From the NCBI GenBank assembly GCA_949840935.1, contig CATKXX010000005.1:1-64000 (forward strand): DNA of 64,000 nt, written 5' to 3'. The notes under the pieces were generated by a model. That model ran no database searches. It was not told the DNA's origin and saw nothing but the letters and a program-made list of their open reading frames with translations. The first letter of the stretch is position 1. Each line of letters opens with the position of its first letter. Positions 13,679 to 17,085 of the stretch are shown here, piece after piece. This DNA is from an uncultured Acetatifactor sp. GTDB lineage: Bacteria; Bacillota; Clostridia; Lachnospirales; Lachnospiraceae. The position numbers and the translations under genes were made by a program.

Positions 13679-15232
13679 ATGAAATCAGAAATCATACAAA
13701 AAGCGGAAAGTCTATATCATACCGGAAACATACAGGAAGCGCTTCAATATTACGCCTCCTGCCTCTGGCGGGGGGAGGAGGACAGCCCGGAGCTTCTGTC
13801 CCGGTGGCTTGGCGACAGGGATTTGACAGACAAAGCCGGGGAACATGCCGTCTGCGCCTTTATCGCATCCGTCCTGTTTACCATAGACCGATGTGAGGAA
13901 AACCTGCGGCAGCATCTGTGGGCCCTGTGCCACGATACCTTTGACCGCATGGCCCTGTGCGAGGACAGGCAGGACACCACGGACAGATACGTTGCGGAAT
14001 GCAACCTCTACCGCCATGAGAAGGAACCGGAAAAGGCTCTGGAGGTCATCTTAAAGGGCCTTGAGCGCGGCGGCACCACTTCCAGGTACACCTTCGCCGG
14101 GCTGACGTACCTTGACCTGGGACAGGAGGAGGAAGCGGAAAAATATATTGCCCTGGGATTTCAGTCAGACCCGCAAAACGCCTCCGCATACAACGATCTG
14201 GGAGATTATTATTTTAACAAAAGACGCTGGCAGAAAGCCGGGGAATGCTATTATAAGGTGCTGGAGGCCGGGGATTACAACGACTGCGGCTGGGCGGAGC
14301 CTTCCTGGATCTTCTGCCGCTATATGGAGGCTGCCGACCCCTGCGAGAGGGAACGGCTCCTGCTCTGCGCCGCCGCGGATGTCCAAAATGAACGCGCCAA
14401 AGAGCTGTGTCAGAGGGCCGCTTGGGAAGCCCTGACGCCCAATGTGGACTACCTGGGATGCAGCACGGAGAGTATCATCAACGCCCTGCGCAGTATGCGG
14501 GAAAGGGGCTCCTCCTCCGGCGTCGTCCGCTGTGCCGTGACCTGTCAGGAATCCGCCAGCAGCATCAACGCCGTGAACCTGGCAATCGGACAGATATGCG
14601 GGGAGCCTTCCTCCTTTGAATTGTCCTCGGGCAAGGCCCAGGATCCGCCCCTTGACCAAACCTGGGATGAGGAGGGGCTTATCCTCTGGGATTACTCCGA
14701 CATCAACGCCCCTGTGCCTGTGGTTGCAAAACCCTCCGGGGAAGTCAGCCGCCTTGTGGGGGAACTGGCCGCCATGGATTTTTCCCTGAAAACATGGTAT
14801 GAAACGGCGGCGGGATATGCCGCACAGCTTTCCGGCGCGCAGCGGGAGGAGTTGTACGGCGTCATGGTCTTCCCTCCACAGCAAAGGGATGACAGGATCC
14901 TTGCCGAAGACTGGCTGTTCCGGGTGCAGTATGCGGCAGTATGCATCCTGGCGCGCATTTCCCTCCATGAGCTGGATCGGATCTGCAAGGGGCAGTTGGA
15001 CTGGCCCATCATTCCCGCCTTCACGCTGGCCGCATGGCTTGCCTCACAGGACACCTCCCTGGCCCCATGGGCGGAGGGGCTTCTGGATATCATACAGCAG
15101 CGTATTTCCCGGACGAATTACTGCTTTTTCCAGTACGCCTATATCTGCGCCGCCTACCTGCTGCCGGGTAAGAGCGGGGAATATTACAGGGATATGTGGC
15201 AGTGCAGACAGTCGCTTTTGGAGAGGGACTAG
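13679..15232 (+). CDS. TPR-like repeat protein
   Basis: Repeated TPR-like helices, e.g. ALQYYASCLWRG, SAYNDLGDYYFNKRRWQKAGECYYKVLEAG. Confidence 0.65.
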   Translation: MKSEIIQKAESLYHTGNIQEALQYYASCLWRGEEDSPELLSRWLGDRDLTDKAGEHAVCAFIASVLFTIDRCEENLRQHLWALCHDTFDRMALCEDRQDTTDRYVAECNLYRHEKEPEKALEVILKGLERGGTTSRYTFAGLTYLDLGQEEEAEKYIALGFQSDPQNASAYNDLGDYYFNKRRWQKAGECYYKVLEAGDYNDCGWAEPSWIFCRYMEAADPCERERLLLCAAADVQNERAKELCQRAAWEALTPNVDYLGCSTESIINALRSMRERGSSSGVVRCAVTCQESASSINAVNLAIGQICGEPSSFELSSGKAQDPPLDQTWDEEGLILWDYSDINAPVPVVAKPSGEVSRLVGELAAMDFSLKTWYETAAGYAAQLSGAQREELYGVMVFPPQQRDDRILAEDWLFRVQYAAVCILARISLHELDRICKGQLDWPIIPAFTLAAWLASQDTSLAPWAEGLLDIIQQRISRTNYCFFQYAYICAAYLLPGKSGEYYRDMWQCRQSLLERD

Positions 15233-15257: not shown

Positions 15258-16361
15258 CTACCGCCCCGTCCCCATCATTCTCCCCAGCTGCTCCACAATC
15301 CCGGCGCTGCCGTTTACGGAGATTTCCCCTACCTTCTCGCATATTTTCTCCAGATACTCGAGCTCCTTCAGCTTATAGAGCGTCTGGTTTTCGTCCATGA
15401 GCTTTGCCGTGTTGAGAAGGGAGCGGGTGGAAGCCACCTCCTCCCTTCTGGCGATCACGTTTGCCTGGGCCGCTTTCTCCGCCACAAGGACGGAATTCAT
15501 GATCTCCCGGATCTCGCCGGGCAGAATGATATCCTTGATTCCGGCGGTGAGGAAGCTCACGCAGAACATATCCTCCCTCGCCTTAAGTGCCTGGAAAATT
15601 TCCCCGGAAATCCGCTCCTTCGCCTCCAACAGCTCATCCAGCTTATAATTGCCCACGATTTCCCGGATGGCCAGCTGTACCGCTGGATAAAGCTGTCCCT
15701 TGAGGTCGGAAATCTTAGACACAAATTCCACGGCGTCCCGCACCCTGTACATGCAGACAGCGTTCAGCCGGATGCCAATCTTATCCCTGGTCAGGATTTC
15801 CTGCCCCACGATATCCAGCTCCCTCTGTTTCATGTCGATGACACAGAAACGGATCCCATGGTTGTGATTCCAGAACCGGTACACTCCCATGGGAAAAGAG
15901 GACTGCATCACATTGTCATAGTAGGCCAGCCCGACCTCACCCTCTCCCACCGACATTTCTGTGTAAAGATTTTTCGGAACCAGGGTAAGCATCTGTTTCG
16001 TAATCTCCTCGCCGATCAGGGTATTTTCCATAGAAATCACCTTCATCTCGTATTTGTCAAATACGTTCCAGAAGACATAATCCTTCCGGGTGGCAAAGGA
16101 CGTCAGCTTCCCGTTCATATAGAGGAAGCCGATGCAGCCGTCCGGTATTTCCATATGTACGGTGGCTTCCCGAAACGCGGGATCCCTGGAAAGCACCTGG
16201 TAAGGGACTTCCAGGTAATCCATCTCGCCCAGCATCTCCTCCACCGCTACCGTGTAGCCCGCCATTTTGGAAAAATGCCAGGTTCCCGCAGTGATCATCT
16301 TCTGGAAAACACCGTTTTTTAACACAAAACCCGCCTGATTATCTCTGATGATATATTTCAA
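15258..16361 (-). CDS. Slipin / SPFH (band 7) family protein
   Basis: LKYIIRDNQAGFVLKNGVF...LDIVGQEILTRDKIGIRLNAVCMYRV...LEAKERISGEIFQ; TTG start 6 nt after GAGGAGGTG. Confidence 0.8.
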   Translation of the reverse strand: MKYIIRDNQAGFVLKNGVFQKMITAGTWHFSKMAGYTVAVEEMLGEMDYLEVPYQVLSRDPAFREATVHMEIPDGCIGFLYMNGKLTSFATRKDYVFWNVFDKYEMKVISMENTLIGEEITKQMLTLVPKNLYTEMSVGEGEVGLAYYDNVMQSSFPMGVYRFWNHNHGIRFCVIDMKQRELDIVGQEILTRDKIGIRLNAVCMYRVRDAVEFVSKISDLKGQLYPAVQLAIREIVGNYKLDELLEAKERISGEIFQALKAREDMFCVSFLTAGIKDIILPGEIREIMNSVLVAEKAAQANVIARREEVASTRSLLNTAKLMDENQTLYKLKELEYLEKICEKVGEISVNGSAGIVEQLGRMMGTGR

Positions 16362-16610: not shown

Positions 16611-16737
16611 GGCGTTTCCGCCTTACTCAGTCCCGCCAGGCGCGGCCTTTCCGGCGTTTCCGCCTTACTCGTCCCGCAGGGCGCGGCCTTTCCGGCACTT
16701 TCCGGCCTTACTCAGTCCCGCAATGCGCGGTCTGTTT
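16611..16737. repeat. 42-bp GC-rich tandem repeat, 3 copies
   Basis: GGCGTTTCCGCCTTACTCAGTCCCGCCAGGCGCGGCCTTTCC repeated at 16611, 16653 and (diverged) 16694. Confidence 0.85.
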
Positions 16738-16879
16738 CGCAGATTCGGTTTATGGATTACGGCAAACGTTTTACTACAGCCTGTTGTTCCTCCTTTCAGC
16801 CTGCGGTATCCCAGGCCCCCGGCAGCAGGGCGGACAGGCATTCCGCTTTCGCTCATGCCTGAAATCGGGACAAGACGTT

Positions 16880-17085
16880 TTTTGAGCGGATTCGAACCGC
16901 AGACTTTACAGGTCTTACCAATACATTGTGCACTCTGCCACTGAGCTACCGCTTACGCGGGAGGGATTTGAACCCTCGCATCACAATTCCTGCCTGACCT
17001 TCCGTCAGGCCCTGTGAAATATTTATGGGATACCGGACAGCACGCTGCCGGCACCGCCGGGCAGGGAGTATCTCCCAATACCCGC
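16880..17085 (-). ncRNA. tRNA-like RNA resembling the bacterial Y RNA (YrlA) tRNA-mimic module
   Basis: Minus strand ATTGTG-ATGC-[GAGGG TTCAAAT CCCTC]-[CCGC GTAA GCGG]-TA-[GCTC AGTGGCA GAGT]-G-CACAAT forms a circularly permuted tRNA; flanked by further hairpins, a second T-arm-like hairpin and an anticodon-arm-like hairpin. Confidence 0.75.

Follow-up and report, generated by a model that had tools for sequence, protein, structure and literature searches.

Bacterial SPFH/Band-7 modules in RtcB systems reportedly go with a "novel tRNA-like molecule" (Burroughs and Aravind 2016, in NAR), and this RNA is said to be treated there as the counterpart of Ro60 with its Y RNA. The locus analysed here has the same make-up, an SPFH/Band-7 gene, an RtcB system and a cognate tRNA-like RNA; the present analysis established the permuted layout of the RNA, the common 5' and 3' elements and the alternation between permuted and canonical order, all of which could already be part of that study. 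YrlA RNAs are often encoded in rtcB operons (PMC8394870, PMC7790460), and a review describes the tRNA-like domain of YrlA as a ligand of PNPase and a substrate of tRNA-modifying enzymes (PMC8394870). The slipin PaFlo8 of the Pseudomonas aeruginosa rtc locus is a further parallel, being an SPFH gene among rtc genes, but the passage describing it mentions no RNA at the locus (PMC13086221); related Pseudomonas loci, P. aeruginosa not among them, carry canonical-order mini-tRNAs upstream of slipin. Circular permutation itself, with the 3' half placed before the 5' half, is reported for algal and archaeal tRNA genes (PMC3978253). Unlike those genes, the element described here has a 4-bp mini acceptor closed by a tetraloop and neither CCA nor a discriminator base, and no mature tRNA would be expected from it.

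The window, the whole 64,000-nucleotide stretch of DNA that was analysed, contains a real and conserved non-coding RNA that mimics the core of a tRNA in circularly permuted order. The RNA is roughly 280 nt long (about 17083-16804, minus strand) and lies between rtcB and a slipin-like gene; both genes are on the minus strand, so the RNA follows rtcB and precedes slipin in the direction of transcription. Its 5' end is occupied by a double hairpin, after which come a covarying hairpin and the permuted module; an anticodon-arm-like hairpin follows, then a second T-arm with neither a second acceptor nor a second D-arm, and finally a conserved 3' GGGATACCG. The features, all on the minus strand, are as follows.

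17103..18335, minus: rtcB, 3'-phosphate RNA ligase (PF01139, E 3e-107), adjacent also in the homologs of the genus
17030..17083, minus: conserved 5' double hairpin, H1 (17083-17059) followed by P2, GCGGTGCC...GGTAT (10-member genus alignment, covariation)
17026..17035, minus: 5' strand of a possible long-range helix P1, CGGTATCCCA, complementary to 16813-16804
16992..17010, minus: hairpin GCCTGAC-ggaag-GTCAGGC directly 5' of the module (covariation, helix 1)
16925..16987, minus: circularly permuted tRNA-like module (sequence, sub-threshold Rfam YrlA match, 10 homologs with covariation)
16987-16982 and 16930-16925, minus: outer stem of the module, ATTGTG/CACAAT
16977-16961, minus: T-arm of the module, GAGGG-TTCAAAT-CCCTC
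16960-16949, minus: GUAA-capped 4-bp mini acceptor, CCGC-GTAA-GCGG
Between mini acceptor and D-arm, minus: U8-A9 (TA)
16946-16932, minus: D-arm of the module, GCTC-AGTGGCA-GAGT
16901..16915, minus: anticodon-arm-like hairpin AGAC-CTGTAAA-GTCT (covariation, helix 6)
16886..16900, minus: second T-arm GCGG-TTCGAAT-CCGC (compensatory change GCGG/CCGC to GTGG/CCAC in homolog G173)
16804..16813, minus: conserved 3' element TGGGATACCG, 3' strand of the possible P1, found upstream of slipin in many lineages
15258..16361, minus: slipin-like SPFH/Band-7 gene (PF01145), downstream and in the same direction

The original prediction covered the permuted module only, which is the middle part of this longer RNA; the second T-arm, the anticodon-like hairpin, the 5' double hairpin, the 3' GGGATACCG and the operon context had been missed. 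A GC-rich tandem repeat of about 41 bp in 2.8 copies (16611-16730) occupies part of the interval from the RNA to slipin.

Every letter and every pairing claimed for the module was found at 16925-16987 on the minus strand. Neither ARAGORN nor Rfam at gathering level called a tRNA there, and an ordinary or permuted tRNA gene was rejected as an identity, the module having neither a 7-bp acceptor nor a complete cloverleaf; the absence of an aminoacylatable end, as originally proposed, is supported, the organisation being YrlA-like with no acceptor end. Folding of the 64-nt module alone was modestly better than that of shuffled sequences (z -1.9), and folding of the surrounding 226 nt gave z -3.45, with none of 200 shuffles as good. 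Conservation shows that the module did not arise by chance. A covariance model built from the five first matches and searched over 138 genomes of the genus found the RNA in 10 of them, at 107-150 bits, and in the alignment of these 10 genomes 98.2% of pair cells were standard, compared with 23-48% when partners were slid. Most genus matches below about 45 bits were disregarded, the loci checked (L031 and beyond) being mostly tandem tRNAs. One such weak match (L033) looks tRNA-derived; at about 1400-1800 this locus contains tRNA-like sequences, repeated units and long insertions near the anticodon, called neither tRNA nor slipin-linked RNA. No match was obtained when viral contigs were searched with the exact motif of the genus.

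Changes on both sides of a pair occurred at 9 of 33 pairs, with a covariation score reached by no shuffle. Support extends to the outer stem, the T-arm, the mini acceptor, the hairpin preceding the module (both-side changes in three of its six pairs), the anticodon-like hairpin and the second T-arm, whereas variation in the D-arm was one-sided only. Of the outer stem, the 6 bp claimed are present in the window but are conserved over only 4-5 bp in the homologs. The GNRA cap is GTAA or GCAA in all 10 genomes, all of which also keep U8-A9, the D-arm and the T-arm. Decayed tRNA genes, or the remnant of a tRNA array, might produce tRNA-like arms without an ARAGORN call, yet such an origin is refuted by the compensatory changes, and the conserved GNRA cap and an operon position kept across phyla likewise speak against it; we regard it as vanishingly improbable.

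Slipin/SPFH and RtcB are the constant partners of the RNA. rtcB adjoins the RNA in 10 of 10 carriers, a close slipin is present in all of them, and in nine it lies within the same fetched locus, RNA and slipin being on separate contigs in the remaining genome (G130). Only one further genome of the genus encodes a member of this slipin subfamily (G154, 41% identity), and it has a tRNA-like RNA, a divergent one, upstream of that gene. From a second rtcB-RNA-slipin copy in one carrier (L020, G036:C83, 15381-15435) the whole permuted module has been lost with the stretch around it; the flanking elements are kept, as are the anticodon-like hairpin and the second T-arm, and its slipin looks intact, so the permuted module is not always needed. 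Next to slipin in the window is a convergent TPR-repeat gene (13679-15232), relatives of which occur in the fetched loci of G038, G130 and G132.

The module shares with YrlA the T-arm, the capped mini acceptor, U8-A9 and the D-arm in permuted order, together with the lack of an aminoacylatable end. Rfam YrlA (RF02553) aligned over 17001-16906 with 28.4 bits (E 4e-4), below its cut-off of 69, and scored 27-37 bits on the homologs; no Rfam family covers the RNA at gathering threshold. The outer stem implied by the Rfam alignment, AAGGTC/GACCT, was rejected, its bases belonging to separate covarying hairpins, and the hairpin at 16992..17010 sits in the flank where YrlA would have its Ro60-binding strand. 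Motifs of YrlA loci such as GAATGC...AACTACA / TTGTCG are absent from the slipin-linked RNA, which in turn has an extra T-arm, an anticodon-like hairpin and conserved 5' and 3' elements that set it apart from YrlA.

No Ro60 was found in the genome of the window, which is only 64% complete, and a true YrlA-family Y RNA with an overlooked Ro60 might therefore be considered, given the same permuted organisation and the sub-threshold YrlA matches. Among 34 genomes identified with a Y-RNA-like pattern, TROVE was positive in only 14; this domain alone being an imperfect test, a Ro60 protein from the same genus was added as a query. With both, Ro60 was found in none of the 10 carriers, several of which are at least 90% complete. 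It is absent from all 11 slipin genomes (the 10 carriers and G154) and present in four genomes of the genus that do not have this slipin (L051-L054); in this genus Ro60 and slipin were never found together. About 0.8-0.9 kb upstream of Ro60 in one of the four (G026) lies a sequence that weakly matches the module, and the genus may thus hold both systems, in different members. With the Ro60-binding flanks absent as well, an overlooked Ro60 is a very unlikely explanation. The proposed YrlA-type organisation therefore stands for the permuted module, on the Rfam alignment and covariation, whereas a plain Y RNA was rejected on the score, the missing Ro60-binding stem and the missing Ro60; the partner gene here is slipin.

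Slipin-linked tRNA mimics form a widespread class that has been little studied, and the RNA is one of them. GTDB genomes were searched with a pattern that combines T-arm, GNRA-capped mini acceptor and D-arm. The search yielded 65 loci, of which, by tblastn, 35 had rtcB, 15 had slipin downstream in the same direction and two had both. The 15 slipin loci, none with a Ro60 match, span Bacteroidota, Spirochaetales, a deltaproteobacterium and Clostridiales Family XIII. As these loci had been selected by their RNA, slipins were also selected by protein alone, and each of the 18 readable cases had a related RNA just upstream, on the same strand. tRNA-like arms or the 5' and 3' elements were found upstream in nine of nine evaluable loci from other clostridial families (one of them, L142, with the elements and no T-arm; L146 and L152 fall outside the nine readable loci) and in nine of nine from the class of Bacteroidota that was sampled. 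T-arms occurred in 35 of 37 slipin-upstream regions, a set that includes 11 regions found through the RNA pattern and one paralogous copy, compared with 2.65 in shuffles. The model of the genus RNA matched sequences in Clostridiales Family XIII (62 bits), Flavobacterium (42) and Cryomorphaceae (41). Across these slipin-bearing lineages the 3' GATACCG and the 5' motif GCGGTGCC...GGTATGCCG recur, the latter thus appearing in other families and phyla, and rtcB is found near slipin-linked RNA also in other clostridial families, Bacteroidota and Pseudomonas.

The tRNA-like part of these RNAs takes two forms. Bacteroidota and some Clostridia have at least one permuted module, often several in tandem, with T-arm, capped mini acceptor and D-arm inside an anticodon-type stem. 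tRNA-like arms were present in only four of nine Pseudomonas slipin loci, and these four (L166, L170, L171, L172) have two tandem mini-cloverleaves in canonical order upstream of slipin, with acceptors of about 5 bp and a tetraloop on the anticodon arm. The occurrence of the same tRNA core in canonical and in permuted order suggests that the shape of the elbow itself is what matters; in our reading of the sequences, the elbow would be the shared part and both functional ends of the tRNA would be dispensable.

Many of the Bacteroidota and Clostridia members end with a 7-nt CUNNNAA loop, carried on a good stem and with varied anticodons, which raises the idea of a decoy or sensor for anticodon nucleases: toxins would cut the anticodon-like loops and RtcB would reseal them, protecting tRNAs or reporting damage. 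A loop of the type searched for was present in 29 of the 37 regions (9.3 in shuffles), the RNA is linked to a tRNA ligase, and YrlA has been suggested as a possible competitive inhibitor of an anticodon nuclease (PMC7790460). However, YrlA was not cleaved by the nuclease studied there, and the Pseudomonas anticodon arm is capped by a tetraloop. In the window the hairpin has a 7-nt loop with GUA at the anticodon position, but within the genus loops of 7 nt occur beside shorter ones of about 3-5 nt, and the genus matches of the loop search fall over the 5' element and not over this hairpin. A decoy or sensor function appears improbable to us.

The RNA lies upstream of and co-oriented with the SPFH/Band-7 gene in the window, in the homologs and in the other lineages, and always directly upstream of slipin, as a cis-regulatory leader would. 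Such a 5' UTR might control slipin by switching between P2 and P1, with tRNA damage or a tRNA-binding protein as a conceivable signal. The 3' GGGATACCG, about 215-420 nt beyond the 5' double hairpin, is complementary to GGTATCCC, and P1 and P2 compete for the same GGTAT bases and are hence mutually exclusive. P1 is conserved with wobble changes only and no covariation; for this reason, and because of its competition with P2, the long-range helix is considered tentative. Against a leader stand the approximately 440 nt between the 3' element and the slipin start in the window, a distance that varies among members. Neither a terminator nor a sequestered ribosome site was identified. A leader would need neither multiple tRNA-like modules nor canonical mini-cloverleaves, and the analogous YrlA acts in trans. 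We therefore consider cis regulation of slipin possible but rather unlikely.

In the reading that we favour, with a probability of about 0.6, the RNA serves an SPFH/Band-7 scaffold as its partner molecule in an RtcB system for RNA repair; sequence, covariation-supported structure, operon context, co-occurrence with slipin and the absence of Ro60 are what the analysis shows. The protein, probably starting at a TTG codon at 16361 as judged from homologs, has no transmembrane segment, and its predicted structure (pLDDT 84, pTM 0.56) consists of three N-terminal beta repeats, an SPFH domain and a long helix. From this model a ring or cage is plausible, and a soluble slipin would be expected to form one. 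We infer that the RNA is a separate, stable molecule bound by slipin, with the 5' double hairpin and the 3' GGGATACCG probably forming the part that is held. The permuted module would present a tRNA elbow, with T-loop and D-loop and stacked T and acceptor helices, without an aminoacylatable end, and the RNA may tether tRNA-handling enzymes or broken tRNAs to slipin, next to RtcB, in the way that YrlA links Ro60 to PNPase.

Foldseek matches of the slipin model included stomatin, HflK/C, QmcA, prohibitin and major vault protein, the last over 416-432 aligned columns (E 6e-9 to 4e-8, TM about 0.42). The eukaryotic vault, with major vault protein, the TROVE protein TEP1 and vault RNA, likewise combines a scaffold with a small RNA, a likeness that for slipin is structural only, at the level of the predicted model; Pfam detected no vault repeat in slipin. 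A vault-like bacterial ribonucleoprotein, in which a soluble SPFH protein with vault-type repeats would cage the tRNA-mimic RNA as a compartment for RNA repair, is a speculative extension that we hold to be unlikely. If true, a vault-like particle would stand beside the Ro60/Y RNA ring as a different solution, with a mimic that keeps the tRNA elbow while its connectivity is circularly permuted between lineages.

For the family as a whole, the tRNA-mimic idea of Y RNAs proves to be independent of Ro60, as in several phyla another scaffold, slipin, goes with a tRNA-like RNA of its own, and the slipin-RNA pair would offer a simple way into the role of SPFH scaffolds in RNA repair.
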